IMG/VR virus record: IMGVR_UViG_3300031707_001866
Coordinates: 1 to 64,000 of that record
Direction: 5' to 3' (one strand)
Source: a virus
Length of the DNA: 64,000 nt
Part shown: positions 1,498-46,806 of the stretch, piece by piece
Layout: every line of letters starts with the position of its first letter
Numbering within the stretch: position 1 is the first letter of the stretch
The notes under the pieces: model-generated
Databases searched by the model: none
Seen by the model: only the letters and a program-made list of their open reading frames with translations
What the model was told of the DNA's origin: nothing
Position numbers and translations under genes: made by a program

Positions 1498-2538
1498 ATG
1501 AAGACTTTAGATGAGATTCTAAAAGCTTGTGAAGTGAAAACTTCCGAGGATAGAATCGCCAGACTTAAAACCGTATTCGGTATTGAAGTAACTGCTGAAC
1601 AGTTGTCAGAATATGATAACAAAGTTCTTGCCGCTATGTTCAATCCGTATGCGATAGCTGAAATGATTGGCGAACCGGTTGTAATGGAGAAAGTTTATTC
1701 TAGTTTATACGCTAGGATTCTTCAAACCCAGTCGGTTAATCCGGGCGATTTGGTAGAAATACCGAACCCGTTTACGGATAAAGTTAATATCTACGCTTTG
1801 GTGAACGACACATTGACTTCTAGGTTAATTGCGGCTGGTGGATACAGCACTGTAACCACTTCGCTGTTTGTGACCGAAGATATTTCAATTAAACTGTCAG
1901 TTTTGCAGAGTCAGAGATATGATACTATACCAATTTATAGGGCTAAGTTAGGGGAATATTTGGATAGGGCTGATGATTATTACACTATTCAGGCTATTAA
2001 TACTTCAATAGCCGCTGCTGTAGCTAATATAGGCACTACCAGAACCATTTCCGGTGATTTTACCTGGAATAACTTCAAAGCCGCTGCGAGAATGATAGAC
2101 CTGTATAGCACCCCGGTTACTATTATCGGAACTCTGAAAAACCTTTTCAAAATTGCTGAATGGGTGGATAGTAATGGCAAACGTGTTATTACTACTTCAA
2201 CTATTGAGAGTTTAGTTAAGGCTGGCGGAGCTGTCCCGGTGATGGGAGCCCAGTATATAGTCGTTAGAGGCCAGGTTACCATCGGTGGAGTTATTAAGAC
2301 CATCGTTGATGACCAGACTGTTTATATTCTTGGAGAACCTGCTAAGGTTGGTTGGTTTACTCGTAGACGCTTGGCCGGAACCGGTCAGGAGAGAACTACG
2401 GTAGTTAAGAATTGGACTGAAGCTGCTAATCAGGCTAATGCCATTTTAACCGACCACAGTTTTGGCGTGGAAGATAGAAGTGTGGACGTGTATGATGCCT
2501 TTTGTATGGTAAAAATAAACATACCTGCTGGCTCATAA
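1498..2538 (+). CDS. Major capsid protein (HK97 fold)
   Basis: This 346-residue protein follows the protease-scaffold gene, as major capsid proteins do. The sequence has the expected order: a helical N-terminal segment (about 1-55, possibly removed at maturation), then the beta-rich P and A domain region ending in a basic stretch (GWFTRRRLAGTG) and an aromatic C-terminus. It would form the hexamers and pentamers of the icosahedral shell. Start choice is supported by GGAGGTGAA upstream. Hairpins on both sides suggest a separately stabilised or processed transcript. Identification rests on position, length and general composition. Confidence 0.85.
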   Translation: MKTLDEILKACEVKTSEDRIARLKTVFGIEVTAEQLSEYDNKVLAAMFNPYAIAEMIGEPVVMEKVYSSLYARILQTQSVNPGDLVEIPNPFTDKVNIYALVNDTLTSRLIAAGGYSTVTTSLFVTEDISIKLSVLQSQRYDTIPIYRAKLGEYLDRADDYYTIQAINTSIAAAVANIGTTRTISGDFTWNNFKAAARMIDLYSTPVTIIGTLKNLFKIAEWVDSNGKRVITTSTIESLVKAGGAVPVMGAQYIVVRGQVTIGGVIKTIVDDQTVYILGEPAKVGWFTRRRLAGTGQERTTVVKNWTEAANQANAILTDHSFGVEDRSVDVYDAFCMVKINIPAGS

Positions 2539-2540
2539 AC

Positions 2541-2598
2541 TATAAATTTTAATTGGAGACCGAGTATGCAAATATTCGGTCTCATTCTAAAATTTATA
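2541..2598 (+). terminator. Strong hairpin after the capsid gene
   Basis: A perfect 8-bp core stem (GAGACCGA at 2556-2563 with TCGGTCTC at 2576-2583) is extended by an outer AT stem (TATAAATTTTA with TAAAATTTATA). It lies between capsid stop and the next gene. No run of T follows directly, so it may act as an RNA stabiliser or partial terminator, leaving the downstream sugar cassette less expressed than capsid. Confidence 0.65.
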
Positions 2599-2613
2599 CG
2601 AAGGGAGCAACAA

Positions 2614-3258
2614 ATGCCTACTGGGGTTTACAAAAGAACTAAAAAGCATAATAAAGCAATGAGTAAAGCACAGACGGGTAAACACCCTTCAAAAGAGACT
2701 CTGAAAAAGTTGAGCAGGGTTAATAAAGGTAAGAATAACCCAATGTTTGGTAAACACCTTTCAAAAGAAACTAAGGAGAAACTTAGCAGGTCTCTAAAAG
2801 GCAGAAAATTTTCAGAAGAGCACAAAAGAAAAATAAGTATTGCCTGTTCAAAATTAAAAGGTGAGAATGCCAACTGGTTCGGTAAGCATCACACTAAAAA
2901 ATCAAGAGAAAGGATGAGTAAGGCGTGCACAGGAAGAAAACTATCAGAAGAGACTAAGAGAAAAATAGGTGCATCGCACAAAGGAAAGCTCTTTTCAGAA
3001 AAACGAAGAGAGGCAATGTCTAAGCTTATGAAAAATTACTGGACTGCCGAACGCAGAAATAAAATACTGAATTCCCCCTCCACCAAGCACCACATCTATT
3101 TAAAAGAAAACTCAGACAAGACAATTAAACTTACTGGTAGAGAACATTTACAAATACATCACGCCGCCTATAGGTATATTTATATTAAGTATGGCAAACA
3201 AGGTGTTGACGAATATATAAAGTGGTTTAAGAGGCAACGAGGGAAGAAATGCTTATAA
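2614..3258 (+). CDS. HNH-type homing endonuclease with NUMOD3 repeats
   Basis: The N-terminus MPTGVYKRT is typical of phage NUMOD3 proteins. About residues 25-145 hold four or five copies of a DNA-binding module of the form GK..S.ET..K.S...KG, rich in lysine and serine. The C-terminal 50 residues have spaced histidines (KHHIYLKEN, LTGREHLQIHH) resembling a degenerate HNH nuclease. Such free-standing endonucleases cut DNA lacking them and so spread with their neighbours. An earlier in-frame ATG at 2566 sits inside the capsid hairpin; the one chosen has GGGAG upstream. It overlaps the glycosyltransferase gene by 10 bases and marks the left border of the sugar cassette. Confidence 0.75.
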   Translation: MPTGVYKRTKKHNKAMSKAQTGKHPSKETLKKLSRVNKGKNNPMFGKHLSKETKEKLSRSLKGRKFSEEHKRKISIACSKLKGENANWFGKHHTKKSRERMSKACTGRKLSEETKRKIGASHKGKLFSEKRREAMSKLMKNYWTAERRNKILNSPSTKHHIYLKENSDKTIKLTGREHLQIHHAAYRYIYIKYGKQGVDEYIKWFKRQRGKKCL

Positions 3259-6200
3259 GAACTTACGAATCAGACATTAATATAGAGAGCATAAAAATAA
3301 AAGCTAACTCTTTCTATACTCTATCTACAGAAGATTACGAAAAGAATAGACAGAAACTCGACTACCTGGTAAACTTGCATAGGGTAGAATTAATTGATAG
3401 AAAAGTATGCGTGTTCTTTATAGATAACTACAGCTTCTTTAGTGGAGGTAGATATTTGTCGTGGCTTTACGCACGAGCATTAATTGCAGCGGGATTTTTT
3501 GTTTATACAGTATGCTACGAGAAAAACCCAATATATTTAAAGAACCTCTCTGACCCAGAAATTCTCAAGTATCTATACATTTCTGATAGTATAAATATTG
3601 TGGGCGATTTTGTTTTTAGTTTACCAATGGATTGCGGCATATCGGCCACAGTGTATGCTGAAAAACACAAACTACCTTTATACCTGCTAATTTTTGAAAC
3701 CCCTAATTTTATTAAAGAATACAGAAAACTAATTGAATGGAGTGACGATAACTGGAGTAAATATAAAGAGTGTTTACAGAAAGCCACAGTCATCTTAGGT
3801 ATTTCTGAGTTAAGCAAACAGTATGTGGCTAAATGGGTTGGTTGTAACCCTGACAAAATTAAGGTCATATATCCCCCGCACAATCCTGAATGTAAACTAA
3901 CGCCGCAAAAGAAACTAGATGAGGTTACTTGGATTGGTCGTGATGTTCCCTTTAAAGGTAAAGACGATTTATATATTATATTGGAAGGTTTAAGTGAATG
4001 GAATAATTTAACATTGAATATTATTGGACAGGCTTCCAAAGAGTTTATTCAAACCTTAAAACTTAGGTGTAATGTTAAAATAAATGTATACGAGGGCATA
4101 ACTGACCAAGAGAAATTCAATATTATTTCTAGAAGTAAGTGTGTTTTAGCCACCTCTAAATTTGAAGGTTTCGGTTTAGTGCCTCTAGAGTCCATAATTA
4201 ATGGAACTAAAGTAGTGGCTTATGACTTACCTGTGTATAGAGAATATTACGGGAATGATATTTGCTACGCCAGAAATTTATTTGAGTTTAAGGAACTGTT
4301 TAAAAGCGTTTTAGGAAACTACACAGTTAAACAAGTATTTATTGACAGATACGTCAAAAAGAGTTCATTTAAAACATTCGTATCGGAAGTTAACGCGGTA
4401 TTTACTGGAAAATTTGAACTACTTAAACCGGTAAATAAAACTATTGGTAATTCCGTGACTGTCTGCACTATAGCCGTTAACGAAGAATTATTTATAAAAT
4501 CTTGGTTACAGCACATTTATCATTGGAAAAATTGTAAAGAGATTATAATTGTAGAGGGTTCGGTAGAGAAATATCGAAGAGTTAACCCAGATTTAGTCAA
4601 TAAAGACGGCAGTTCAATAGATAAAACAGTTGAAATAATAACTAATTTTCCAGACTCGGATAAAAAAATAAAACTTATCAAGGGCAAATGGTCTGATAAA
4701 CTTGAAATGAAACAGAAAATTTGGGATAGTGCTACTGGAGATTATGTATTTTTAATAGACTGCGATGAGTTTTATACCGAGCAAGGGTTTAATGAAATAT
4801 CCCGTATAATTGAAGAAGGGGAAATAGAAGAGTTAAGAATAAACCAAAGAATATTTGGTCAGACGCCGGACTCTATAGTGGTTGGCGGAAGATTTGACAA
4901 TTTGGCTATGGAAAGATTCTGGAAACGGGAAGGCAACTATCCGTTTACTCATTTTTTAGTCAAAACAAAAGAAGGCCGTGCGTTAAAACTTACTGATTCC
5001 AATGTGGTGTGCTACCATTACAGTAATATTAAATCAAAGATTCTTCAAGAGGCCAAATTAAAATTTTATGAGGTAAGAAATACAGAAGAGTATAAAGGAG
5101 CCTTTGAGCACCACTTAATATATAATCGAGAGATTATCAACGCTAAGATTGGGGATAAATTATCTGATGGTTCTAGGGTAGAAAAGTATACCGGCGAGCA
5201 TCCTTTCGTCATAGAACGCTTAATGAAAGTGCAATCCAATAAACACAGTGAACTAAAAGTGGCGTTTGTATTCTATGCCTCACATCCGACTATGTATTCC
5301 GGCGGTCAGTATGCCGCGTGGAGATACGTGGAATCGTTAATTATGCAGGGAGTAGATGTAACTTTTTTTGGGGATTCTCCACCCATATTTGCTAATAAAG
5401 AGTTTACTCCCAAGATTAAAAAAATTAACTTGTGGCGCGGCTCGGAAGACTCTTTACAATATTCAGAGATGATATATAAAGAAATGGTTAAGGCCGACAG
5501 TAAGCCGGACTACGATGTCATCATAGGCATACCTAGTTCTTATACCCACCCGGCTGCTTTATATGGAAATAAATATGGCATACCAGCAATTAGTTTTCTT
5601 TTTGAGTGCCCTTATTCGTTGTTAACTTACGGTGGAAAGATGTTTGAAGCCTATCTTCAGAGAGGGGATTGGATTAACTACAAAGAAGGTTTAACTAAAT
5701 GTGACCTTCTCCTGAGTGTTTCCGACACTTCTGGTATGTGGCATAGAAGATGGATTACTGATTTAAAGAAACCAATAAAGACTCTTTTTCCCCCAATCAA
5801 TAGCGTAGTAGCAAAGAAAATTAGGAATAAAGACTACGCTAAGAAGAACCAGATTATGACACTCGGTTTTTGGAGCGGCAAAAAAGAATTTGGAAAATAT
5901 CTGGGTGAGGTTACAAAAAGATTGAACAAAAAGTTAACCCCGATAATACTTAGTCAGTATCCCAAAAACCACGAAACAGAGACTGCTCTTGGGCTGCACA
6001 GTATAAATAAAGACTTTAAAATACTAAACGGAATATCGGAAGAAGAAAAGTTTGAATACTTGTCTAAGAGTATGTTTGTTTGGAACCCTTATTTTATTGC
6101 TGGCGGGGACTACCAATCAAAAGAGGCCGCTTATATGGGAACGTTAGGTATAACTTTTAATTCGCCAGTAATGATTGAAACCACCGGGGGTTTTTCCGAG

Positions 6201-6431
6201 ATAGTTCAAGAGGGGGTTTCTTGGGAATACAGAAGACAGACCGAGATAAACCCCGAATTAGACGAGTATCTTATTCAGAAAGTAACCGACAAGATTAATT
6301 GGTTGTTGGTTAATCCTGATTATGTGGAGTTTAAAACTAAAGTTTTTCAGAAATATGTAGAGGAAAATCACACACTAGAAGCAGTCGGTAAAAGATTTGT
6401 TTCTTTATTAAATAACTTTTTAGGAAGATAA
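3249..6431 (+). CDS. Three-domain glycosyltransferase (GT-B, GT-A, GT-B)
   Basis: This 1060-residue protein joins three transferase domains. Residues about 50-390 form a GT4-like GT-B domain with the EGFGLVPLE nucleotide-sugar motif near 306. Residues about 402-640 form a GT2-like GT-A domain whose metal-binding DxD-type motif reads DCDEF (504-508). Residues about 675-1060 form a second GT-B domain. The first and third domains begin alike (FFSGGRYLSWLYARAL and MYSGGQYAAWRYVESL), so they probably arose by duplication. No membrane segment is evident, so it should act in the cytoplasm. The acceptor is unknown: capsid or tail protein, modified DNA base, or host glycan. The following sugar-nucleotide genes are tightly packed, so it probably uses their product. 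Confidence 0.8.
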   Translation: MLIRTYESDINIESIKIKANSFYTLSTEDYEKNRQKLDYLVNLHRVELIDRKVCVFFIDNYSFFSGGRYLSWLYARALIAAGFFVYTVCYEKNPIYLKNLSDPEILKYLYISDSINIVGDFVFSLPMDCGISATVYAEKHKLPLYLLIFETPNFIKEYRKLIEWSDDNWSKYKECLQKATVILGISELSKQYVAKWVGCNPDKIKVIYPPHNPECKLTPQKKLDEVTWIGRDVPFKGKDDLYIILEGLSEWNNLTLNIIGQASKEFIQTLKLRCNVKINVYEGITDQEKFNIISRSKCVLATSKFEGFGLVPLESIINGTKVVAYDLPVYREYYGNDICYARNLFEFKELFKSVLGNYTVKQVFIDRYVKKSSFKTFVSEVNAVFTGKFELLKPVNKTIGNSVTVCTIAVNEELFIKSWLQHIYHWKNCKEIIIVEGSVEKYRRVNPDLVNKDGSSIDKTVEIITNFPDSDKKIKLIKGKWSDKLEMKQKIWDSATGDYVFLIDCDEFYTEQGFNEISRIIEEGEIEELRINQRIFGQTPDSIVVGGRFDNLAMERFWKREGNYPFTHFLVKTKEGRALKLTDSNVVCYHYSNIKSKILQEAKLKFYEVRNTEEYKGAFEHHLIYNREIINAKIGDKLSDGSRVEKYTGEHPFVIERLMKVQSNKHSELKVAFVFYASHPTMYSGGQYAAWRYVESLIMQGVDVTFFGDSPPIFANKEFTPKIKKINLWRGSEDSLQYSEMIYKEMVKADSKPDYDVIIGIPSSYTHPAALYGNKYGIPAISFLFECPYSLLTYGGKMFEAYLQRGDWINYKEGLTKCDLLLSVSDTSGMWHRRWITDLKKPIKTLFPPINSVVAKKIRNKDYAKKNQIMTLGFWSGKKEFGKYLGEVTKRLNKKLTPIILSQYPKNHETETALGLHSINKDFKILNGISEEEKFEYLSKSMFVWNPYFIAGGDYQSKEAAYMGTLGITFNSPVMIETTGGFSEIVQEGVSWEYRRQTEINPELDEYLIQKVTDKINWLLVNPDYVEFKTKVFQKYVEENHTLEAVGKRFVSLLNNFLGR

Positions 6432-6432
6432 T

Positions 6433-7392
6433 ATGGGACTTATTGGAAATCATAGTTCACTGGGTCAACCACTAAACTTATCATACAATGATTTGAACAA
6501 ACTAAGATTTATTAATGCATCAGGCAGCCATTGTTTAAACATAGGCTCAGAAGATTGGAACTCGACCTATGTGCGTGACCCCTACGTCATAAAAATAAAC
6601 TCGTCATATTATATGTTTTATAGTGGCAAAGGTTCTCGTAGTTACGGAATAGGTTTAGCGATGTCTAAGGACGGGCATACTTTTAGGAAGCACAGTTCTG
6701 TGCCAGTCGTTAATTGCGGCGAATGTGGGGAGTGGGATTCTTTTTATATCCAGTTTGGCTCTGTAATAAAATTTAATAAAAAATTTTTAATGTTTTATGA
6801 CGGCGGAAGAAAAGAAAACAATAATTGGTTGGAATTGGGTATAGGAATAGCTGAGAGTGACGATTTAATCAGTTGGAAAAAGTTTAACGGCAATCCTATA
6901 TTTTCTACTCAGGGAAACCTATCTAAACGGCAACTGCTGCCTTTTGTAGTAAAAGTTGAGGATAAATTTTTTATGTATACCGAGAGTCATAAAGACGCCG
7001 GTTGGAAAATAGACCTTTCGATTAGCAAAACACCATATTATTTTGACGAGTTTAATACAGTATGGTCGGGAATAAAATATAAACAATGTGATGTTAATGG
7101 TGTAGCCAACCCTAAAGTTTTTGTAATTAATGATGGTTTACTTATGGGTTATAACGGGTTTGACACTAAAGTAGCTGGCTTTTTAAGATTGGCCTTTTCG
7201 CGCGACGGATTAAACTGGGAATGTATAAATAAAGACTACCCAATATTAAAGGGAGTAACTGCTTGGGATGCCTGGAGAAGAGAGAATTGTTTTATTTTGG
7301 ATGACGCCGGCAGTTTAAAATTATATTATTTTGCTTCTTCTAATAAAGAGGATGAATATAAATTTAGGATAGGGATGGGGGTTCAAGAATGA
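6433..7392 (+). CDS. Five-bladed beta-propeller glycosidase-like protein (GH43/GH32/GH130 clan-like)
   Basis: The 319-residue sequence repeats blade signatures: SSYYMFYSGKG, a second KKFLMFYDGG, a third DKFFMYTES, each followed by G.(A/S).S.D...(F/W). An early RDPYVIK holds an aspartate where propeller glycosidases have their catalytic base, and RREN near the end is a candidate acid position. No signal peptide is visible. Such proteins cleave or phosphorolyse oligosaccharides; a non-catalytic sugar-binding role is equally possible. It starts two bases after the glycosyltransferase stop and overlaps the next gene by four bases, so all are translated together. Confidence 0.6.
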   Translation: MGLIGNHSSLGQPLNLSYNDLNKLRFINASGSHCLNIGSEDWNSTYVRDPYVIKINSSYYMFYSGKGSRSYGIGLAMSKDGHTFRKHSSVPVVNCGECGEWDSFYIQFGSVIKFNKKFLMFYDGGRKENNNWLELGIGIAESDDLISWKKFNGNPIFSTQGNLSKRQLLPFVVKVEDKFFMYTESHKDAGWKIDLSISKTPYYFDEFNTVWSGIKYKQCDVNGVANPKVFVINDGLLMGYNGFDTKVAGFLRLAFSRDGLNWECINKDYPILKGVTAWDAWRRENCFILDDAGSLKLYYFASSNKEDEYKFRIGMGVQE

Positions 7393-8462
7393 TAATTCCA
7401 GTAGCTAGACCAGACATTTCCGGTAACGAGATAAAGTATGTTACTGACGCACTAGAACGTGGCGAGTTGACTTACAAAGGTAACTATGTCAAGTTATTTG
7501 AACAAAAATTCGCCGAAGAAAATGGCAGTAAGTATTGCTTGACTACGGCTAACGGGACAGTGTCCTTACATCTTATATTAGCGGCATTGGGAATTAAGCC
7601 TGGCGATGAGGTAATAACCCCAACCCTAACTTACGCTGCGACTAGTTTTGCAATATCTTATTGTGGTGCTACTCCAGTATTTGTGGATAGTAACAGACTT
7701 GACTACAACATAAATCCGGAACAAATAGAAGATAAAATTACAGATAAAACAAAAGCAATTATGGCAGTTCATTTATACGGACATCCGGCTCAAATGGACA
7801 GAATAAAAGAAATAGCGGATAAGCACAACCTACCAATTGTGGAAGATTGCGCTGAAGCACCCGGCTCAAGTGTAAATGGGGTTAAGGTGGGAAATTTTGG
7901 GGTAGCGGGTAGTTTTAGTTGGTTCGGCAATAAAATTTTAGCGGCTGGGGAAGGCGGAGCAGTAGTTACTAATGACGAAGAACTATACAAAAAAATGAAG
8001 CACTTAGCCAACGGAGCCACTGTTTATCCCTATTACCACGACCAGATTGGCTTTAATTATAGAATGTCAAATATTTCTGCTGCAATTATTTTCGCACAAC
8101 TAGAGTCTTTTGACAGATATATAATAATGAGAGAAGAAATAGAGTCTTTATATAATAAGTATCTTAAAGGTTGTAAAAACCTCATATTTTATAAGGATTT
8201 TTTAGGCATAAAGCCGGTTTGTTGGCTATACACGGTTTTGGCTGACCGTCGGGATGCTCTAATGAACCATTTAAAGGCTCAGGGAATCGAAACTAGACCA
8301 TTCTTTTTACCTAACCATAAACTACCACCTTACGATAAAGATGAGATATTCCCAGTGGCTGAAGACATTGCTAAACGCGGGATAAACCTACCAACCTTTA
8401 TAGGTTTGACTGAAGAAGAGATTAGATATATAAGTGATTGCATAAGGGAGTTCTACAGATGA
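7389..8462 (+). CDS. Perosamine-synthase-like DegT/DnrJ/EryC1/StrS aminotransferase
   Basis: A full-length (357 aa) PLP-dependent sugar aminotransferase. The PLP lysine lies in SWFGNKILAAGEGG (K182), the pyridine-binding aspartate in VEDCAEA (D153), and NGTVSLHL and VHLYGHPAQMD are family signatures. The pattern is closest to RfbE/Per, which convert GDP-4-keto-6-deoxymannose plus glutamate to GDP-perosamine. The GDP-mannose dehydratase-like gene in the same operon supports that substrate, but specificity cannot be read from sequence alone. Start ATG overlaps the preceding stop (ATGA). Confidence 0.8.
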   Translation: MIIPVARPDISGNEIKYVTDALERGELTYKGNYVKLFEQKFAEENGSKYCLTTANGTVSLHLILAALGIKPGDEVITPTLTYAATSFAISYCGATPVFVDSNRLDYNINPEQIEDKITDKTKAIMAVHLYGHPAQMDRIKEIADKHNLPIVEDCAEAPGSSVNGVKVGNFGVAGSFSWFGNKILAAGEGGAVVTNDEELYKKMKHLANGATVYPYYHDQIGFNYRMSNISAAIIFAQLESFDRYIIMREEIESLYNKYLKGCKNLIFYKDFLGIKPVCWLYTVLADRRDALMNHLKAQGIETRPFFLPNHKLPPYDKDEIFPVAEDIAKRGINLPTFIGLTEEEIRYISDCIREFYR

Positions 8463-8941
8463 TAAGACGTCTAGATAAAAAAGATGTAGAGATTCTTCAC
8501 ATATTTTTAAACACGCAACTTTCTGATGCGGATAAAGAACTATTTCGTCCCCATAGTTTTAAAAAAGAAGACCTTAATCGTATATTAGGGTCAGCCAATA
8601 TATATGTGGGGTTCTTTGAGGGAGAACAGATGGCTGGGTATGGACTTTTGAGGTTCCATAAAAATTTTAAATATCCAATGGTGGGAGTGGCTGTATCTAA
8701 AAATCACCGAGGAAAAGGAATAGGTTCTCAAATAATTCAATACTTTATTTCAACGTCAAAAGTTGATATTGTAAAATGTAAAGTTTACGCCAACAATTCC
8801 GCTTCGTTGGCGTTATTTAAAAAATTAGGATTTCAGTTTAAAGTGTATGAATGGATAGGAGAACATAGACGCGGAACAATGTATAGCAGTCAGAGTCAAG
8901 AGAGTAAAGACAAACTTCGAGATTTAAGGAAGACACTATGA
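8459..8941 (+). CDS. GNAT-family N-acetyltransferase
   Basis: A 160-residue protein with the GNAT acetyl-CoA signature: beta strand 4 (MVGVAVSKNHRGKGIGSQII) gives the R/Q-x-x-G-x-G/A pyrophosphate loop, followed by YANNSASLALFKKLGF, typical of motif B. Between an aminotransferase and a dehydratase it most likely acetylates the new 4-amino group, giving an N-acetylperosamine-like sugar. Known perosamine acetyltransferases (PerB) are usually left-handed beta-helix proteins, so a GNAT here would be an alternative solution. The ATG chosen overlaps the previous stop and follows AAGGGAG. Confidence 0.75.
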   Translation: MIRRLDKKDVEILHIFLNTQLSDADKELFRPHSFKKEDLNRILGSANIYVGFFEGEQMAGYGLLRFHKNFKYPMVGVAVSKNHRGKGIGSQIIQYFISTSKVDIVKCKVYANNSASLALFKKLGFQFKVYEWIGEHRRGTMYSSQSQESKDKLRDLRKTL

Positions 8942-9915
8942 AAAAGATTTTTATCACGGGGGGCACTGGCTTTTGCGGTTCCCATCTCTTGGATGCTTAT
9001 TTAGAGCGCGATGATGTTAAATTATTTGCTATTAAACGTTGGCGCAGTAGAACCGAAAATGTTGAGCATATCAAAGACGGAGTGGAATGGATAGAATGTG
9101 ATATTACTGACGCTGGTGCTGTAAATAAGGTTATAAAAAATATAAAACCAGACATTATTCATCATTTAGCAGCCCAAAGTTTCGTAACTACGTCGTGGTT
9201 ATATCCAGCTAAAACATTCAATGTCAATATAATGGGGTCTTTATACTTGTTCGAAGCAGTTATGAACCATTGCCCGGAAGCAATAGTTCAAGTAGCCAGT
9301 AGTTCAGAAATTTACGGAGTCCCTAAATTTATACCAATAACTGAAGCCGCTATACCAGAACCCTGTTCTCCCTATGCAGTGAGTAAATTAGCAATGGATA
9401 GGCTGGCCGCACAGTTTCATAAAAGTTATGGAATGAAATCAGTTATTACCAGGGCGTTTAATCACGAAGGAGCCAGACGCGGGGACGTGTTCGTAATATC
9501 GTCTTTTGCTAAACAACTGATGGAAATAAAACACGGAATACGCAATCACACAATCGAAGTAGGTAATCTAGACTCGAAAAGGGACTGGACAAACGTTAGA
9601 GATATGGTCAAGGCGTATATAGTTGCAGTTGAGAAGTGCTCGTATGGTGAACCTTACAATATATGTAGTAATAATTCTGTTAGTGTAAAAGAAATGTTGG
9701 GCGAGTTAACAAAACTATCTGGATTAAAAGTAAAGATTAAAATTTCTAAAGAACGCATACGTCCTAGCGATTTATACGTTTTAGAGGGCGATAACAGTAA
9801 ATTTTGTAAGAAGACCGGATGGAAACCGGAGTCGAGTCTGACCGAAATTTTGAAAGAAACTTTGGAATATTGGGACGAGAAAATAAAAAAAGAAATAGAC
9901 AGTGAGAAAAAATAA
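8938..9915 (+). CDS. GDP-mannose 4,6-dehydratase-like SDR enzyme
   Basis: An extended short-chain dehydrogenase of 325 residues. It has the nucleotide-binding loop GGTGFCG (8-14), catalytic S-x-E in ASSSEIYG (near 122-124) and YxxxK in YAVSK (146-150). FNHEGARRG and VGNLDSKRDW are signatures of GDP-mannose dehydratases and close relatives. It would oxidise and dehydrate GDP-mannose to GDP-4-keto-6-deoxymannose, the substrate for the aminotransferase. A reductase (RMD/GDP-fucose type) is less likely because the catalytic glutamate is kept. It overlaps the acetyltransferase gene by four bases. Confidence 0.8.
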   Translation: MKKIFITGGTGFCGSHLLDAYLERDDVKLFAIKRWRSRTENVEHIKDGVEWIECDITDAGAVNKVIKNIKPDIIHHLAAQSFVTTSWLYPAKTFNVNIMGSLYLFEAVMNHCPEAIVQVASSSEIYGVPKFIPITEAAIPEPCSPYAVSKLAMDRLAAQFHKSYGMKSVITRAFNHEGARRGDVFVISSFAKQLMEIKHGIRNHTIEVGNLDSKRDWTNVRDMVKAYIVAVEKCSYGEPYNICSNNSVSVKEMLGELTKLSGLKVKIKISKERIRPSDLYVLEGDNSKFCKKTGWKPESSLTEILKETLEYWDEKIKKEIDSEKK

Positions 9916-10359
9916 ATGATAATTAAGTATAGAAAACACGGAACTAAACTTCTTGTCACTTGTAAACAATGCGGCAAGAAAAAGTGGCAGAAATACTGGC
10001 GAGCCTTTTGTTACAGAAGAGGTAAAAAAGTCATAAAAAAATTTTGTGATATGCGATGTTGGCTTAAATGGATAAAGGTCAACGCCCCTAAAGGAGAGAA
10101 TCACCCAACTTGGAAAGGCGGAATTAGACGCAACCACGGTGGTTATACATTTGTTGGTCAAGAAGGCCATATGAAGGCGCAACACCGTGTAATTATGGAA
10201 AAGTATTTAGGGAGAAAGTTACTCAAAAACGAACTAGTTCATCACAAAAACGGGATAAAGAGCGACAATCACATAAGTAACTTAGAAGTAGTTCTTAATA
10301 ATGCACATAGAGGAAATGTAAAATGTCCGTATTGCTCTAAAAAGTTTAAAATTAAGTAA
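9916..10359 (+). CDS. HNH endonuclease
   Basis: The central motif QHRVIMEKYLGR...LVHHKNG...DN..SNLEVV is a typical phage HNH nuclease core (ending near residue 125). Cysteine pairs before it (CKQCGKKK, then FCDMRCW) and after it (CPYCSKKF) probably bind zinc. It begins directly after the dehydratase stop and forms the right border of the sugar cassette. With the NUMOD3 endonuclease on the left it may make the block between them mobile. Confidence 0.85.
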   Translation: MIIKYRKHGTKLLVTCKQCGKKKWQKYWRAFCYRRGKKVIKKFCDMRCWLKWIKVNAPKGENHPTWKGGIRRNHGGYTFVGQEGHMKAQHRVIMEKYLGRKLLKNELVHHKNGIKSDNHISNLEVVLNNAHRGNVKCPYCSKKFKIK

Positions 10360-10373
10360 GGAGTTGAAAAACA

Positions 10374-10808
10374 ATGTCGACAACTGTAGAATCACTTAGA
10401 CAAAGCGTCCGTTATAAGGTGCACGACCTTAATATTTTAGATTTTGTCTGGTCAAATACCGAAATAGACGCCTATATAGTCGAAGCCGTGAAAAAACTCG
10501 CTCAATACAAGTATGTAAACATTAATGGGTATGCTTACAGTTTAATTACTAATGATACGATTATAAGCCCCACCGTTCTATTGGGCGACCAAGCGTTGAT
10601 TACGGATATAACAAAGATTTTAGTCCTGGCGCATACGGGCATAAACTTTAAGACAGAAGACATTTCCTTGTCTGAAGGAGTAAAGCCTCGCGACGACGAA
10701 GAGTTTATTGTTTATCTTATTGATATGGCACGTGGGCAGGCATACGGCCTTATTGGTTACTTTACCGAAGACGACTCCGGGGATATAACAATTGATTTTG
10801 GTTCATAA
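10374..10808 (+). CDS. Head-tail connector (adaptor) candidate
   Basis: This 144-residue acidic protein begins with a helical segment (ESLRQSVRYKVHD...WSNTEIDAYIVEAVKKL) like those of phage head-completion adaptors that bind the portal ring, followed by a beta region. It resumes the structural operon after the accessory cassette. Function is inferred mainly from gene order (capsid, neck, tail). Confidence 0.5.
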   Translation: MSTTVESLRQSVRYKVHDLNILDFVWSNTEIDAYIVEAVKKLAQYKYVNINGYAYSLITNDTIISPTVLLGDQALITDITKILVLAHTGINFKTEDISLSEGVKPRDDEEFIVYLIDMARGQAYGLIGYFTEDDSGDITIDFGS

Positions 10809-12337: not shown

Positions 12338-13717
12338 ATGAGTGAAGAACTTTATGTCAAACATAGTAGATATGGTGTAATTACCATACCTAACAATCCT
12401 TCGGTGGTTTACAATACCGACATCAATGAATGGTGCTTACAGAGGGTTCAGAGTGTGGCTATAGGCGGTGATATGCCTACCATAGAATTTAAGGAGTTTG
12501 GAAGAGCCGGGAAGAAGAAAATAGCTTCTGTTTCCAGCGTTCCAGTTTCTATAAAATTTAATGAGTTTGGAAAAATAAAGCATTGGGCTTTATTTTCTGG
12601 ACAAGACCCTGACACTACTCAAGAAGTGATGGCTGGCGCAGACCCTGATGACGGTTCTGACGGAGATTTTACTAATGAAACCTGTGATTTTGTGGCTATG
12701 AAGAAAAATTCCGCAGGGACTATTATAGAAGGGGTATTTGTGCAGCGTGTTGCTGTAGGTGGTTTTGATATTACTATTCCATCTGGAAATGAGAAGATGG
12801 AAGTAACAGTAAATGGAACTGGCAGAGCCAAGAGTTGGGTTGCCAATACTTCCAAATATGTAGTAAGAGAAAGCCACGATGTCACCAATACTGATGATAC
12901 CAACGGATACTTTGATTGTGCTTTAGAGGCTACTGCACTTGACCATCCGTCAGGTAAGTATACTTTAAGAGTGTCAAAAGTAGCAAAGGTTAGTGGGGTT
13001 GTGGATTTATCTACTCAGGTTGACTTAGTAGAAGGAACTGATTATACTTGTTCAATAGTCTCGAACAAACTAAGGCTTACCGAAGCCGGAACGAATACTT
13101 GGGATTACACAGGAGCAACGACTTACGAGATAGTAGCAGTCACCTACACCGTCTCCAGCGATGCAGGAAATGCTAATATTTGTAGTTTTGCTAATGTAGA
13201 CGACACGAATCCGTATTTGATTACAGGTAAACAAATTGAAACATTTATAGTCAGCGATGGTAATTTAGCCACTATTAAGGCAGCCATTTATGGTAGTCAG
13301 ATTAGCGCAATTGCGAATGTATATAGAGTAAAAGCCTCTAATGTAAGTGTATCTTTCTCCAGAGAGGACTTATATCAGCAGGGCGATGAAAATACATTTG
13401 CCAGACCGTCTAATGATGCTACCGCCACGATGACGTTAGATAAATTTGAAACCGACCTAACTACGTTGGCTATTTTGACCGGAACTTCTGCGGCCACAGT
13501 TAAGAGTTTAAGGTTAAGTGATTTCTTAACCAACCTTAATGTAGTAGTCGTAATTTACGACGACGCAGACCACACTAATATTCTTGCCAGGTATATAATG
13601 GAAGATATTCGTGTATCAGGTCAAAGTATGGACGGAGATGTTGGTTCAGTATTCAATGCCGGTTTTACAATAGAGGCTGATAACTTCTATGTGTATGATA
13701 CTGGTCTTGGAAGTTAA
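12338..13717 (+). CDS. Major tail (tube) protein
   Basis: This 459-residue beta-rich protein precedes the tail chaperones and tape measure, as tube proteins do. The N-terminus contains long amphipathic strands (IEFKEFGRAGKKKIASV, VSIKFNEFGKIKHWALF) of tube type. It is long for the family, so an extra domain (perhaps Ig-like, about residues 160-280) is probably displayed on the tail surface. A strong hairpin after the stop fits high expression. GGTGGTGAAA precedes the ATG. Confidence 0.75.
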   Translation: MSEELYVKHSRYGVITIPNNPSVVYNTDINEWCLQRVQSVAIGGDMPTIEFKEFGRAGKKKIASVSSVPVSIKFNEFGKIKHWALFSGQDPDTTQEVMAGADPDDGSDGDFTNETCDFVAMKKNSAGTIIEGVFVQRVAVGGFDITIPSGNEKMEVTVNGTGRAKSWVANTSKYVVRESHDVTNTDDTNGYFDCALEATALDHPSGKYTLRVSKVAKVSGVVDLSTQVDLVEGTDYTCSIVSNKLRLTEAGTNTWDYTGATTYEIVAVTYTVSSDAGNANICSFANVDDTNPYLITGKQIETFIVSDGNLATIKAAIYGSQISAIANVYRVKASNVSVSFSREDLYQQGDENTFARPSNDATATMTLDKFETDLTTLAILTGTSAATVKSLRLSDFLTNLNVVVVIYDDADHTNILARYIMEDIRVSGQSMDGDVGSVFNAGFTIEADNFYVYDTGLGS

Positions 13718-18349: not shown

Positions 18350-21300
18350 GTGTTAGATAATACAATAATAGAAGGAATATTAAAGAATAAATATCAGCCA
18401 AGACCGGGCGGGGAAATTGACTTTGGAGTTATGACAGCTAAAGCCAGCCATCAATGGTTATTTGGTATGCAGGATAACGAAGAAGGATGGACATACAGTC
18501 CTAATACCACAGCAGATTTTATTTCTAAAGACGGTTATTTGAACATTTATTTTAATTCCAACGCCGACGCATATATTTTATCACCAGAACAATTAGAAAT
18601 AGACGGCACTACATACAATCATATTTTAATCAGACTAAAATTTGAACCAGGAACATATACAAACCATACTTTTAGCATCAATTGGGTTTTAGATGCCGAC
18701 GAAGAATTTAATACCAGTATATCAGTTAGCGTGGATACAACTGGTCAGGAAGACGGCGAATTTTATGAGTATGATATTGACTTATCCGCCGACAACAATT
18801 GGCTCTACAACAGCATACACCAGATAAGATTTGATTTTGACGATAGAAGCGAAAAAAATATTTATATTGATTATATACGAGTCCAAAGTAGTAGTGAATC
18901 TGTAGGAGATAAGAGTGTCCAGTTGCTTCAAACCGATGGTTCTATGCCGACTATTTTTAGAGACCATTCAGACAATGTCTGGGCTGCTTGGTTAAAGGCC
19001 GTTACTGATGTAGCAGCAACTTCTAAAACTTGGACTACCGATGCCGACTTTAATACAGGAACTAAATATCAGACTGTATTTGGGAGTAACAAGGTTGTCT
19101 TAGACCAAACTGCCCCTAGTGACACACTAGACCAATCGCAAACATCTTGGGACGCTAGCGGATATTTACAAATGCGCTATAGCACTGCAATAGAATGGAA
19201 CGCTAATTCCTTTACACCATCCGTCACTGCTAATATTTCTAAAGTTATTTTAAGATTAGCCAAAATAGGAGTTCCCACAGGAAATATATGGATTACAATA
19301 GAGACAGACAATTCTAATAAACCAAGCGGAACCATAGTAGTTCAATCAGCAAATGTTGACGTGTCTGGACTATCCACTGATACCGTCAATGGGGCGGAAG
19401 TCACTTTTACTCTTTCCCCGACTTCCCTGACATCGGGAATAAAATATTGGATAAAGTATAACGGTGATTATGCTGAGTCGTCATCTAATCACACGATAAT
19501 ATTTAAAAAAACCAGTATGGGCGCACATTTTGGGTATTACGGAAACGGTAGTTTTCATATTCCCTATGACTCAAACTCAGACGCATATTTTAAGGAATAT
19601 TATTTACCGTCCAGTAATCCCTATTTTTCAAACGGTTACATTGAATTTATTTATGATGCGGGGGCTATTGCAGACTGGTCTACTTATGATTTCTCTGTGG
19701 ATTTATTGGAACCGGCAAACACTAATATAAAAATAAAATGCGCGACTTCCAATGACAATGTTTCTTATTCTGCTTGGAGCGGTTGGTTTGATACTTCGAC
19801 AGGTAATTTAACCGGGGTTGCAAATAGTCGTTACATCAAAGTTCAAGTATATTTAGAAACAACTAACACGGCAACTACCCCAACATTAGGGGCACTTACT
19901 ATTAACATATTGACAGTTCCTACTTACGCCATAAAGTATAAAAAATATACTTCTGGTTCTTGGGGAACTGAGACTACTTTAGTAACTGATACAGAAGAGT
20001 TCGCCAACAATTTATGTTTATATGAAAACAACTCTAACCAAATGGAGTTAGTTTACGCATTAGATTCAAATGTTTATAGAACTTATTATAATTCAGGTTG
20101 GCAAACCCCGGTAAGTATAGTAACTCACACTTCAGGTGATATGAGGTGTTGGGCATTTAAAGGGGCTGATGGGTATGACTATATTTACTATTCGTATGTT
20201 TCAGGCGGAGTTTACTACATAAAGTTTAAAAGTAGCGCGGATAACTACGCCGCAGAAAACTCAGTTTTAAGTTCTACTTCTAAAATTAAAAATATCTGTG
20301 TTTATGAGGATGACAAAAATGTAGTGTGGTTGGTATATGAACTATACATTACTTATACTTTAAAGCCAACATTTGTTCATTTATATTGTAAAAAGTCCAT
20401 AGATTATGGTGTCACTTGGGGTTCCGCCACAAAAATATCCTCTACAGAAGAGACTAAGGAAGATTTATGGTTGTGTGGATTAGATAAGTTAGTCGCCTTA
20501 GACGATGAAAATAGTTGGGAGACAGTGGTTAATTCTGCGTCACCATATAAAGGAGAAATGTATCACGGCAAAGTTTATATGGTTGATTCTTTTAAGAGCA
20601 GATTAGACGGGATAGTTGCGTCAGACTTTAATAATTTATACAAATTCGATGGGGCTGATTTTTCCACAGAGCACGATTTTAGTGCCGACACCCCCGCAGA
20701 AAAAGCCAATGATATAATTATAGCAGATGATTATATATGGATTCTTGGTGCAGCATATGTGCAAAAGTATGACGGAACAGCCCTAACTAAACTAAACACC
20801 GACGTAATTGATTGTGCTAACGAGTCCTATACTTTTGGCGAGATAGGGTTGTGTTTTGGTGGGCTTCCTATTTATTGTGGTGGGGGAAAAGTTGGTGCTA
20901 ATGATGGAAAGTATTATAAGTTTATTGACTATGTTGGTTGGGAAGGATTAATTGGTGTCGCCAATGCGGGTTATCAAATTATGGAATCCTATTACTATGA
21001 GGGAGAGCAATATGCAGTTCTATTATTAAAACAGGCAGTTTGGGGAGAATATTGGAGTTTTGTAATTGGGAAGTTCAATAATTCTACGAGTGCTTTTCCT
21101 TTTGATATTATATATAACGACTATAGTTCCACCGGCTACAAATATGGCGGGGTTAGTAATTATTTTGTAACTTGCAAGATGCGATTTTTAAACGGGGTTC
21201 CTTATCTGTTAATGGTGGGGGGAGATTCCTCTGGGGCAGTTATTGATTCGCGCGTTTATAATTTAATTGACTATTCAGTGTCAGAAAGTTTAGTCGGGTC

Positions 21301-24300
21301 TACTTTAAATAACTTTATCAGGACTGTATATGATTGGAAAGGCGAAAAATATTATATAACTAAACAAACAACTTGGAAAATATTTAAATACGACGAGGCC
21401 GCTTCTACGTGGGAAGAAAACGAGACCGCACCTTGTCAGGCAATTGACAGTATAAAAACTAAGGTTCCGTTACAGCATTCTTATCCCAGGATACTGCAAA
21501 CCAACGACGGACAAATCTTAGTTTATTATCAAAACAATAGAAATTATTACAGGGAGCCAGGGAAAATTCAAGGCATTTTGATTGAGCGAGACAGCTCTTT
21601 AAATGTGGGTGATACTAGGGAAGTTTCTTTTGTTAATAGAAAGGTCAATTTAGGATTTGACGTAGACGACTGGACTGACACTGAGAAGGTGTCTATATTT
21701 TCTACTTATAATTCAGTAACAGATAAATATGACGTTAGGTATCAAGTATTAGAAAAGATTGATTTAGATAGTTCCTGGTCTTCTCATTTGAAGGTCAGGG
21801 ATAAAATAAAGGGAATGACTATTGAATTAACCGACGAATCACAAGCCGGAACCTTCAATATAGAACTAGATAATTCTGACGATAATTTTAGCCCCGACAA
21901 TCCTGACTCATCTGTCTATGGGTATTTAGAAGAAAATAAGGAAGTAAGGTTGAGCTTGGGGTTTATGGATAACATTCAATTACTAATGACTGGCTTGATT
22001 GACGAAGTAAACTGTGATTACACTCCAGATGGGGCGAAAGTAACTAAAATTACTGGAAAAGATTATTGGAAAAAACTGTTAGATGTCCCCGTTACTTTAA
22101 CTGTCGGCGAAGATAAAAAAGTAGCGAGTAAAAATTCTGATATACTGATTAAACACATAGAAGGCAATACAGCCACCGACGCCACAAGAACCATCTCAGT
22201 AATTACTGGTGGGACAACTATTTATCAATTAGCTATCCCAGTAACCTTTATCGTTCCACAATACGATACGATAACTAATTATGAAATAAAACTTGAAAAT
22301 ATTTCTCCGGCTTATGCCGCAGGAGATTATGAGTGGAGTTGGGAACACGAAGGTATTGTTGATAAATTAAGTCCCGGATACTTTGTTAAAGTTAAGATGA
22401 TTACTGTTAATTATAACGCCCCGCGTCTAACATTTGACCTAGTGGGAACTTCGCGGACTGACTCGTCTACTAAAACTTTTGGAACATTTAATGCTAATTA
22501 CGATGATTCCAACGTAACCTTAATAGAGACCGGGGTAACTAACGGCGATAACTGCACTTGGAATGATGGAATTGCTTATTATATCTGGGACGTTCTTATC
22601 AACATTCCTTCCAAAGAAATAGACGACGACTATGACTTGACCGTTGCGAATGTAACACACAATTTACCGGTGCATACCCCAGAATACCTTAATTGCGAAG
22701 TAGTTTATCCTGAGTATATTGAAAAGGCGTCAATTCACAACAAAGTTGTAAAGACCAATATCTATATACTGACTGATAATGCCTCAGATTTTGATTTTAG
22801 CTTTGACTTACGAGTGGTTTATTCTAATGACAATACTCAAACAGTCCAAGTTAGACCCACCAAAGAGGAATTGTTTGATAAACTTTGCACTGAGGCGAAA
22901 ATAACTAACTCAGAGTTTTCTGAACCAATTAGAGCAAAATTACCTAAGGTTTCTTTTATAGAAGAAAATGCCATTGATTGCTTTGAAAAATTACGCCAAG
23001 TATGCTGGGACAGTAATAATAAATTGTATAAATTATATTTCAACAACTGTGGTAAATTGATACTGAAGCCCATATTTGAAGATTACGTCTATTACTCTAA
23101 ACTTTGGACTACCGACGATGATTGGATGACTTATTCTTTCTTACAAAATGTTTTTATAAATGCTGGTTCAGTTGTGCTGTCACTAACCGGGACTAATTAT
23201 AGTAACTACGGAGCTAATGTATTACCAGAAAACGACGGCTGGACAAAATATACTAATAGTGTGATAGTCCCAACTGCTTTGGGAGGAGTTTATCACTGGG
23301 CGAAGGTAGGAACAGACTATATGTGCTACTACAGGCACGCCGCTTTTGTAAACAGCGTGGGGTGGACAATTGAGGCTAAGTTAAAAGTAGTTCATTCAGC
23401 AGGAACCTCCGGTTGGTTGCGCCAGATATTTATTTCGAGCGTCTCAGACACGCGTTCGTGCGTATTAGTATTTGGAGAAGACAGAATACAACTGTGGTCT
23501 AATCTTCAGGATTTGGAAGGTGGAAACACGCTATACGGACAGTATGTTATGGATACAACCCACGATTACCACATTTATAGGCTAGTTTCCAAAAATAACC
23601 AATGTGATGTTTATGTGAATGATATGACGATACCGGTAATATCGGTAACATTGACTTCCTTATATACCCCTTCCCCATCAGATTCAATAGAGTGGGGAGA
23701 CCACGCTACAGCGGGGGGAGCGGATTCCTGCGAATATTATTTAGACTATTTAACTTATAATGATGGCATAATCCCTACGTATAATACTAACGGGTATATT
23801 AGACTCCAGAAAGATGCGGGAGAAGAGGTTCATTGGGAAAATTATTTAATCTCAAAATCAATTCCAACGGGCACTGGTGTTAGACTTAGGGTCAAAACAG
23901 CCTCATCTCAATCTGAATTGTCTACTGCCGGTTGGTCTAATTGGAACGAGGCAGCTAATGACGATTTAGATATTCCAAGTAATCGTTGGCTAGAAGTAGA
24001 ATTATATTTATATACTAATGATACTGACGTTACCCCTGTTGTTGATGACTTAACTATAAATTATAGAAGCATAACAGTTCAGAGAAAAATGGTATGGACA
24101 TTTACAGAATATCAAGACATCATTCAATTATCCAAACCTTTACGGGACATTGAATTAGTAAGCAGGGTTAAGGTTACGGGTGCGGAAGAAGAGGTTAGAG
24201 AGGTTGTATATCCAGAAAAACAACTCTATACCGCACACGAGTTGACTGTGGGTAATCACGGCGATGTAGACGAATATAGATTATACTTCTCTAATGACAA

Positions 24301-24814
24301 TGGGGCAATAAAAGTAGACCCCTCGTCAATTAGGGTTACAGAGGACTCTTCGTCCGACGCTACCTGGATTATGGAATCGGTTAGTTCGGATAATGTAGAA
24401 ATCTGGGTCTATAATACGAATTGGTGGCACACGGGTTGGGTTAAATTAAACGTTTATGCTAAACCGGTGGGGGACGCAGTTCCGACCGCTATATATAAAG
24501 TTGAAACGGACGTCTCATCTAAGCGTCTTTATGGGCTCAAACAAGAAGAGATTAGCAATCCTCTTATAGCGACCGAAGCAGAGGCGGGATATTTGGCACT
24601 GGCTACACTCGAAGAAAGTAAGTTAGAAAAGAATACCGTAGAGTTTGAAACTATATCGGGGTTATTAATTGAACCAGGAGATTTTATTACAGTCATTCAT
24701 ACAGACAGCAACACTAATGACTGTTACAGAATTAGAAAGGTCACACACGAATTGACTGTGACCGACGCGGGAAATAAACTTACTACAAAATTAACAGCAC
24801 TAAAACTTACTTAG
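18350..24814 (+). CDS. Giant tail hub and receptor-binding protein (2154 aa)
   Basis: A mosaic protein starting at GTG after AGGAGAGG. About residues 30-180 look like a carbohydrate-binding jelly roll; about 260-400 like an extracellular adhesion module; about 540-1120 contain repeats suggestive of a beta-propeller. From about 1170 (KIKGMTIELTDESQAGTFNI...VRLSLGF...GLIDEV) comes the tail-hub domain of phage Tal/gp27-like proteins. A laminin-G-like domain (about 1660-1800) splits the hub, whose last part (EAEAGYLALATLEESKLEKN) resumes at the C-terminus. It should form the tail tip and hold the receptor-binding surface. Domain borders are my estimates. Confidence 0.65.
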   Translation: MLDNTIIEGILKNKYQPRPGGEIDFGVMTAKASHQWLFGMQDNEEGWTYSPNTTADFISKDGYLNIYFNSNADAYILSPEQLEIDGTTYNHILIRLKFEPGTYTNHTFSINWVLDADEEFNTSISVSVDTTGQEDGEFYEYDIDLSADNNWLYNSIHQIRFDFDDRSEKNIYIDYIRVQSSSESVGDKSVQLLQTDGSMPTIFRDHSDNVWAAWLKAVTDVAATSKTWTTDADFNTGTKYQTVFGSNKVVLDQTAPSDTLDQSQTSWDASGYLQMRYSTAIEWNANSFTPSVTANISKVILRLAKIGVPTGNIWITIETDNSNKPSGTIVVQSANVDVSGLSTDTVNGAEVTFTLSPTSLTSGIKYWIKYNGDYAESSSNHTIIFKKTSMGAHFGYYGNGSFHIPYDSNSDAYFKEYYLPSSNPYFSNGYIEFIYDAGAIADWSTYDFSVDLLEPANTNIKIKCATSNDNVSYSAWSGWFDTSTGNLTGVANSRYIKVQVYLETTNTATTPTLGALTINILTVPTYAIKYKKYTSGSWGTETTLVTDTEEFANNLCLYENNSNQMELVYALDSNVYRTYYNSGWQTPVSIVTHTSGDMRCWAFKGADGYDYIYYSYVSGGVYYIKFKSSADNYAAENSVLSSTSKIKNICVYEDDKNVVWLVYELYITYTLKPTFVHLYCKKSIDYGVTWGSATKISSTEETKEDLWLCGLDKLVALDDENSWETVVNSASPYKGEMYHGKVYMVDSFKSRLDGIVASDFNNLYKFDGADFSTEHDFSADTPAEKANDIIIADDYIWILGAAYVQKYDGTALTKLNTDVIDCANESYTFGEIGLCFGGLPIYCGGGKVGANDGKYYKFIDYVGWEGLIGVANAGYQIMESYYYEGEQYAVLLLKQAVWGEYWSFVIGKFNNSTSAFPFDIIYNDYSSTGYKYGGVSNYFVTCKMRFLNGVPYLLMVGGDSSGAVIDSRVYNLIDYSVSESLVGSTLNNFIRTVYDWKGEKYYITKQTTWKIFKYDEAASTWEENETAPCQAIDSIKTKVPLQHSYPRILQTNDGQILVYYQNNRNYYREPGKIQGILIERDSSLNVGDTREVSFVNRKVNLGFDVDDWTDTEKVSIFSTYNSVTDKYDVRYQVLEKIDLDSSWSSHLKVRDKIKGMTIELTDESQAGTFNIELDNSDDNFSPDNPDSSVYGYLEENKEVRLSLGFMDNIQLLMTGLIDEVNCDYTPDGAKVTKITGKDYWKKLLDVPVTLTVGEDKKVASKNSDILIKHIEGNTATDATRTISVITGGTTIYQLAIPVTFIVPQYDTITNYEIKLENISPAYAAGDYEWSWEHEGIVDKLSPGYFVKVKMITVNYNAPRLTFDLVGTSRTDSSTKTFGTFNANYDDSNVTLIETGVTNGDNCTWNDGIAYYIWDVLINIPSKEIDDDYDLTVANVTHNLPVHTPEYLNCEVVYPEYIEKASIHNKVVKTNIYILTDNASDFDFSFDLRVVYSNDNTQTVQVRPTKEELFDKLCTEAKITNSEFSEPIRAKLPKVSFIEENAIDCFEKLRQVCWDSNNKLYKLYFNNCGKLILKPIFEDYVYYSKLWTTDDDWMTYSFLQNVFINAGSVVLSLTGTNYSNYGANVLPENDGWTKYTNSVIVPTALGGVYHWAKVGTDYMCYYRHAAFVNSVGWTIEAKLKVVHSAGTSGWLRQIFISSVSDTRSCVLVFGEDRIQLWSNLQDLEGGNTLYGQYVMDTTHDYHIYRLVSKNNQCDVYVNDMTIPVISVTLTSLYTPSPSDSIEWGDHATAGGADSCEYYLDYLTYNDGIIPTYNTNGYIRLQKDAGEEVHWENYLISKSIPTGTGVRLRVKTASSQSELSTAGWSNWNEAANDDLDIPSNRWLEVELYLYTNDTDVTPVVDDLTINYRSITVQRKMVWTFTEYQDIIQLSKPLRDIELVSRVKVTGAEEEVREVVYPEKQLYTAHELTVGNHGDVDEYRLYFSNDNGAIKVDPSSIRVTEDSSSDATWIMESVSSDNVEIWVYNTNWWHTGWVKLNVYAKPVGDAVPTAIYKVETDVSSKRLYGLKQEEISNPLIATEAEAGYLALATLEESKLEKNTVEFETISGLLIEPGDFITVIHTDSNTNDCYRIRKVTHELTVTDAGNKLTTKLTALKLT

Positions 24815-40414: not shown

Positions 40415-40991
40415 AAATTTTTCTTGTAATAATGAAGGAAAAAGGAAGAAAAGCGACTTTTATGAAACTCCATATTCTATTACAAGACAATTTTTGGAAT
40501 TGGAACCGCCTCCCCTGGAATGGAAAATTCTCGAACCTGCCGCTGGTTCGGGGGCAATGACAAAAGTAATAAAAGAGTTTTCAAGTAATGTTACAGAGTA
40601 TAAATTTGAACAGGGGAAAGATTTTTTAATAGAAAACGAAAAGTTCGATTTTATAATAACAAATCCTCCTTTTTCTCTTGCCTATGAATTTATTCAAAAA
40701 GCAAAACAAGTTGCAAATCATAAGTTCGCACTTTTATTGCCCTTGTCTTATTTGCACGGAAAAACCAGATTTGATAATGTTTGGTCTGATAAAAAGTTTC
40801 CATTATCCCATATATATGTATTTGTTCGTTATCCGATGTTAGGGAACAAACTGCGAGAAGATGGAAAATATAAAACAGGTATGATGGTTTATGCTTGGTA
40901 TGTATGGGACAAAAGCACAACAAATAAAGAGCCCATCATTAAATGGATTGATAACCATAAATATGTAATAGGGGCAAGAAATGGACAATAA
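40401..40991 (+). CDS. Adenine-specific DNA methyltransferase-like
   Basis: 196 residues. SAM-binding motif I is EPAAGSGAM (about residues 44-52) and catalytic motif IV is NPPFS (about 86-90), with the start [14 protein letters not shown] common in phage N6-adenine methyltransferases. It would methylate phage DNA against restriction; it is short, so the target-recognition part is minimal. Directly upstream of the SAM synthetase gene. Confidence 0.75.
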
Positions 40992-46804: not shown

Positions 46805-46806
46805 TT

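Follow-up and report, generated by a model that had tools for sequence, protein, structure and literature searches.

To our knowledge, few phages are known to glycosylate their capsids. The viosamine pathway of Mimivirus (R141/L136/L142) includes a virus-encoded 4,6-dehydratase, a DegT-type aminotransferase and an acetyltransferase clustered with glycosyltransferases, and viosamine has been found in the virion fibres (PMC4691112). Glycans have been reported on capsid proteins of mycobacteriophages Che8 and Rita (cited in PMC11256854), and the modification genes of Corndog (cluster O) lie between portal and protease (PMC4351075); the glycosyltransferases are phage-encoded, and the accessible parts of these sources mention no phage sugar-nucleotide synthesis. 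Cyanophage S-SCSM1 carries the GDP-sugar enzymes GDP-mannose dehydratase (GMD) and GDP-L-fucose synthase together with fucosyltransferases; the accessible part of its description reports no aminotransferase and assigns the genes to host cell-wall modification (PMC9602691). Here we describe a sugar-nucleotide and glycosyltransferase cassette in a 64,000-nucleotide stretch of viral DNA (the window), which comprises positions 1 to 64,000 of the 65,239-base IMG/VR record IMGVR_UViG_3300031707_001866. The cassette is best read as a new form of glycosylation that a phage encodes and probably directs at its virion, and homing-endonuclease-like genes flank it on either side.

Like the Mimivirus genes, the cassette combines dehydratase-, aminotransferase- and acetyltransferase-like genes with a glycosyltransferase. 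The Mimivirus pathway is UDP-glucose-based and belongs to a eukaryotic giant virus, whereas the window encodes GDP-type enzymes in the head operon of a tailed phage. It differs from the mycobacteriophages in glycosyltransferase content and location. The DegT protein of the window is 45% identical to the Caulobacter GDP-perosamine synthase (PDB 3bn1/3dr7), and the lysine motif that binds pyridoxal phosphate (PLP), FGNKI, is conserved, but the tree gives no supported clade that joins the two.

Seven same-strand genes are located between the capsid-like gene and the genes that run to the tape measure at position 14994 (Table 1). Five of these, spanning 3249-9915, are carbohydrate genes, and the outer two are homing-endonuclease-like. 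The carbohydrate genes meet at junctions of +1, -4, -4 and -4 bases, with an ATGA overlap at each end of the GNAT gene, so joint translation of the five is very likely. Chance is excluded for each of the five family assignments by Pfam E-values of 7e-12 to 2e-111. The base composition of the cassette agrees with that of the remaining phage sequence and so gives no hint of a recent import. An earlier note on this DNA had described five packed sugar genes splitting the capsid gene from downstream genes, and this arrangement is present and Pfam-backed. The interval proposed there, 2566-10373, does enclose the sugar genes but is wider than their true extent; it also takes in the two endonuclease-like genes, which that inventory omitted. 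Position 2566 falls within an RNA hairpin, and the likely start is the ATG at 2614, which is preceded by AAGGGAG, resembling a ribosome-binding site. The label "neck" for the genes from 10374 onward was positional, as 10374-10808 has no family match in Pfam or PHROG. Matches of the capsid-like gene are weak yet consistently of HK97 type (28 bits against the NCBIfam HK97-fold capsid model, under its cut-off of 80). None of 200 shuffles was as stable as the hairpin that follows this gene, which is a possible attenuator or terminator.

Table 1 Features of the capsid-side block in the window. MFE, minimum free energy; SDR, short-chain dehydrogenase/reductase.
Feature	Coordinates	Strand	Evidence
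Major-capsid-like gene, directly upstream of cassette	1498..2538	+	PHROG 2522 major head protein, E 1.3e-5 (weak)
Strong RNA hairpin, gap between capsid gene and cassette	2541..2598	+	MFE -26.1 kcal/mol, z -7.06
NUMOD3 homing-endonuclease-like gene	2614..3258	+	NUMOD3 80.7 bits, cut-off 20.4; PHROG homing endonuclease
Fused glycosyltransferase, 1060 amino acids	3249..6431	+	PF00534 45.7 bits, PF00535 28.9 bits
GH130/GH43-like beta-propeller protein	6433..7392	+	PF04041 52.4 bits, cut-off 26
DegT/DnrJ/EryC1 sugar aminotransferase, GDP-perosamine-synthase-like	7389..8462	+	PF01041 373 bits
GNAT acyltransferase, candidate 4-N-acetyltransferase of amino sugar	8459..8941 (ATG 8459)	+	PF00583 45.4 bits
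Extended SDR, candidate GDP-hexose 4,6-dehydratase, GDP-mannose-dehydratase-like	8938..9915	+	PF16363 249 bits
HNH endonuclease, second flank of cassette	9916..10359	+	HNH_3 37.6 bits, cut-off 24.8; PHROG 20891 HNH endonuclease, E 5e-16

The SDR has a GMD-type catalytic motif yet by score is no classical GMD. Its active site (ASSSEIYG and NHEGARRGDVFV) is GMD-like, and an NHE..RRG..FV stretch and a KRWRSRTEN loop resemble both GMD and GDP-heptose dehydratase; GDP-4-keto-6-deoxymannose reductases (RMDs) instead carry GS..EYG and NHIGP.Q. The catalytic S/T-x-E and YxxxK residues are in place (SSSEIYG, Y146xxxK150) and are conserved in 36 sequences. The top 15 PDB matches of an alignment-based structure model (predicted local distance difference test, pLDDT, 95.9) are all GDP-sugar enzymes (VIA-align, Z 45.4 to 43.2), namely RMD 2pk3, GDP-heptose dehydratase 7us5 and then GDP-mannose dehydratases, with UDP- and dTDP-sugar enzymes at Z 41.9 and below. 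This structural comparison, which the earlier note had proposed, hence ranks GDP-sugar enzymes ahead of those for other substrates such as UDP-GlcNAc, and the model points to a GDP sugar, although a common fold is no proof of substrate. In the tree, the SDR falls outside the GMD clade (100/100) and the RMD and heptose clades, next to one viral sequence (97/86); it is also outside the LegB group.

Bacterial relatives of the SDR were sought in 299 genomes of Moorella's phylum (Bacillota), where the best 17 matches are 45-50% identical. A ManC-like gene (GDP-mannose pyrophosphorylase) adjoins the SDR in three of them (L138, L142, and L144), and other homologues are located near spore-coat-like genes. 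Among genomes with an SDR match of at least 280 bits, 12 were searched for a classical GMD and none had a hit above the GMD cut-off (0/12), so this SDR type is the one evident candidate to dehydrate GDP-mannose in them. A more distant relative (L145) belongs to a GDP-heptose-type locus. The neighbourhoods of the relatives favour GDP-mannose as the substrate; GDP-heptose or another GDP-hexose is possible. The SDR relatives are also the sole grounds on which a Bacillota host is suggested, and searches of the same 299 genomes gave one weak match to the propeller protein and no match to the glycosyltransferase.

Two further patterns were seen among the SDR relatives. Several members of the subfamily in Bacillota genomes (L129-L144) lie beside ManC-like or spore-coat-like genes, which hints that these enzymes serve spore-coat polysaccharide in a way not yet described. 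In four viral contigs from IMG/VR (L148, L150, L158, and L165), a chaperonin-like open reading frame (ORF; ..DLIRSTLGPRGMNK..) is directly upstream of the SDR, and glycosyltransferase and radical-SAM-like genes come after it; these are possibly archaeal viruses.

The DegT protein has 3bn1 as its best PDB match (E 2e-84; 44-45% identity to the Caulobacter enzyme), with the PLP lysine in the aligned FGNKI. In the tree it occupies an unresolved branch, the nearest sequences by path being L026 and 3bn1. L026, a bacterial DegT protein that groups with 3bn1 (99/97), has an adjoining GNAT gene, and DegT-GNAT neighbours are likewise found in L228 and L243, where the GNAT is Pfam-confirmed. Trios of GMD, DegT and GNAT genes are present in viral contigs L228, L229, L230, L233/L234, and L238; in L239 and L245 the partner is of the left-handed beta-helix (LbH) type. 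The GNAT gene beside a DegT that groups with 3bn1, together with these viral trios, makes the three-step chemistry coherent. The SDR, DegT and GNAT proteins support a 4-amino-4,6-dideoxy-sugar pathway, whose exact sugar we infer below. The standard route runs from GDP-mannose through GDP-4-keto-6-deoxymannose and GDP-perosamine to the N-acetyl form, and the earlier note had held that the three genes are exactly what this route needs. The coherent enzyme set and the best PDB match of the DegT protein agree with such a route; the word "exactly" goes too far, as set out below.

The earlier note's "transferase" is indeed a glycosyltransferase, and proves to be one fused three-domain protein. Pfam recognises one GT4 and one GT2 domain (about residues 55-340 and 403-600). 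Family and PDB searches gave no match to the C-terminal part, which aligns to the protein's own N-terminal GT4 domain at E 1e-16, so the organization is GT4-GT2-GT4, with the second GT4-like repeat at about 672-981. This assignment relies on the internal repeat; a single-sequence structure model of the C-terminal part (pLDDT 40) was too poor to use. An E-x7-E motif at 306-314 in the first GT4 repeat is lost in the second, and a DCD is present at 504. The idea that the first 55 residues form a small head/neck domain, as near the L177, L241, and L245 cassettes, was unsupported by hidden Markov model and phmmer searches. No membrane segment is predicted in the glycosyltransferase, and hydropathy stays below membrane-like values in every cassette protein (highest 19-residue Kyte-Doolittle average, 1.43). 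The block's seven genes include neither a flippase nor a lipid-priming transferase. These features favour a cytoplasmic acceptor. The propeller protein may serve in glycan trimming, phosphorolysis or binding.

Placement beside capsid genes recurs in other phages. Profile-guided scans of IMG/VR yielded many phage contigs, which may be fragments, with a window-type SDR or DegT. In nine of these contigs the first carbohydrate gene of a sugar-nucleotide/glycosyltransferase cassette starts 0.04-1.5 kb downstream of a capsid gene. Their capsids belong to six families (PHROG 3437 in L171, 1005 in L177, 1357 in L197, 267 in L279, 771/264 in L210, L239, and L258, and 10/617 in L241 and L245), or seven including the window. 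Connector-family genes come after the cassette in L239, L245, and L258, and tail-tubular-like genes in L171 and L185. In L210, approximately 15 genes separate the capsid from tail genes, including GDP-fucose-type enzymes and what reads by eye as a fucosyltransferase-like gene. Virion decoration, which the earlier note favoured because of the location beside the capsid gene, draws its strongest support from this repeated placement just behind capsid genes that are unrelated to each other. A literature search, to which subscription papers were out of reach, turned up no description of sugar-nucleotide cassettes beside capsid genes.

From gene content, order and packing, and from the folds, motifs and recurrence evident in these sequences, we infer a substrate, product, acceptor and benefit for the cassette. 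The SDR would probably convert a GDP-hexose of the host (GDP-mannose being the most likely) to a 4-keto-6-deoxy sugar, the DegT protein would aminate it at C4, and the GNAT protein would acylate the resulting amino group; the product would be GDP-N-acetylperosamine or a closely related sugar. The GT4-GT2-GT4 glycosyltransferase, a soluble protein, would then transfer the amino sugar and further sugars to a cytoplasmic acceptor, most likely a virion protein from the same operon, with the capsid as the leading candidate. A role in trimming or binding this glycan is possible for the propeller protein, and the hairpin after the capsid gene could reduce enzyme output relative to capsid. Searches for integrase and resolvase families in the phage found none. 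An own-donor pathway, soluble transferases, the lack of integrase and resolvase genes, and repeated placement behind unrelated capsids together favour decoration of the particle. We give about an even chance to the proposal that this phage operon serves glycosylation, making an N-acylated amino sugar from GDP-mannose and attaching it most likely to the phage's own particle. If true, the particle glycans would be chosen by the virus and not merely borrowed from the host, since donor synthesis and transferase are both phage-encoded. Recurrence in seven capsid families makes it directly testable whether the heads of phages with such cassettes bear glycan, and against what it would protect.

Several observations weigh against this proposal. 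The best single PDB match of the SDR is the reductase 2pk3 (37% identity over the aligned part), its nearest bacterial clade has CSSEEYG in place of SSSEIYG, and it scores 159 bits against the curated GMD model, whose cut-off is 415. Neither the SDR nor the DegT tree places the window enzyme within a characterised clade. Known GDP-perosamine acetyltransferases (PerB/WbdR type) have the LbH (hexapeptide) fold, a class different from the GNAT protein of the window. The contig sample is non-random, having been retrieved via SDR or DegT, and several capsids were spotted by eye before testing. In an unselected check with one capsid model (PF05065) over 50 contigs, with positions converted by hand, six had a confident capsid; the cassette was less than 0.8 kb downstream in two of these (L241 and L245), and in the other four it was not, three of these being from one lineage with the cassette 12-16 kb away. 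The capsid-side location is therefore recurrent, not obligatory. Finally, megablast, tblastn with the capsid, glycosyltransferase and terminase, and peptide patterns (SDR, capsid, primase-helicase, propeller, and glycosyltransferase) recovered no close relative of the window phage, single-sequence patterns having a limited reach that makes this no proof of absence.

The same SDR results bear on the identity of the sugar. A different GDP sugar (GDP-heptose-derived, GDP-mycosamine-type, or GDP-GlcNAc/legionaminic), or an SDR that acts as a reductase after a host dehydratase, is a doubtful though serious alternative, in keeping with the ranking of 2pk3 and 7us5 and with the heptose-kinase genes that adjoin homologue L125/L145. 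LegB and LegC are also the highest-scoring NCBIfam models for the SDR (163 bits, cut-off 475) and DegT (328 bits, cut-off 420), both below cut-off. The SDR lacks the RMD motif, however, and is excluded from the RMD clade (88/98); the LegC of a Moorella NeuB cluster belongs to a different clade from the window DegT, and the cassette has no NeuB/NeuC-like partner or heptose gene. The main rival to particle decoration is that the sugar goes to the surface glycan of the infected or lysogenized host, either wall polysaccharide or capsule, where it would block superinfection or change the serotype. Bacterial surface-polysaccharide loci typically contain glycosyltransferase, DegT and SDR genes of these families, Bacillota SDR homologues occur near spore-coat-like genes, and the accessible account of S-SCSM1 makes the same assignment for its GMD/fucose genes (PMC9602691). 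We regard it as rather unlikely here, given a cassette inside the head operon that recurs beside capsid genes, carries no membrane protein, flippase or lipid-priming transferase, and belongs to a phage in which no integrase or resolvase family was found.

Endonuclease genes abutting each end, and NUMOD3-like genes near SDRs in L170 and L175, would fit a selfish island that homing endonucleases maintain and spread with the sugar genes as low-benefit passengers. Five intact ORFs with conserved motifs, a base composition that matches the phage, and the lack of an endonuclease match at most capsid-side cassettes elsewhere make this improbable. Glycosylation of hypermodified DNA bases is more improbable still. 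In its favour, the phage encodes both a C5 cytosine methylase and a protein of the Mom family, and DNA-glycosylating phage glycosyltransferases are known, according to the accessible part of a citing source (PMC12619734). A thymidylate-synthase/hydroxymethylase family gene was searched for in the phage and not found, and the capsid-side location also argues against a DNA target. T4-style glucosylation, moreover, needs no sugar-nucleotide synthesis. Beyond particle decoration in the window phage, the gap between capsid and neck or tail-tubular genes could be a general docking site in unrelated tailed phages for interchangeable sugar-nucleotide-plus-glycosyltransferase cassettes (perosamine-type, fucose-type, and others), building self-made capsid glycan coats with homing endonucleases alongside in some cases. 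We hold this broader idea only tentatively.

The C-terminal HH...N...EH..IH stretch of the first endonuclease-like protein, read by eye, resembles an HNH motif. Rfam detected no group I intron, and therefore the endonuclease genes look free-standing. Their presence at both edges suggests a possible means of block movement. In L175, a NUMOD3 endonuclease-like gene (12655-13332) is located downstream of an SDR, between two genes that resemble halves of a thiamine-pyrophosphate-dependent E1 enzyme.

Elsewhere in the window, an S-adenosylmethionine synthetase gene (40981-41931; PF01941) lies just before the C5 cytosine methylase (42074-42946), and the Mom-family protein (PF25680, E 1.8e-27) is encoded at 46758-47432, overlapping a tRNA-like call (46806-46878) with an odd two-base anticodon. 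Together, these three genes hint at unusual DNA modification. Two different Clp-protease-like genes are present (30055-30612 and 32544-33197), and the first of them is followed by a gene for an RNA ligase (30609-31169). The tail region includes an ORF of 2154 amino acids (18350-24814) that has almost no family match apart from a weak Phage-tail_3 match at its C-terminus.
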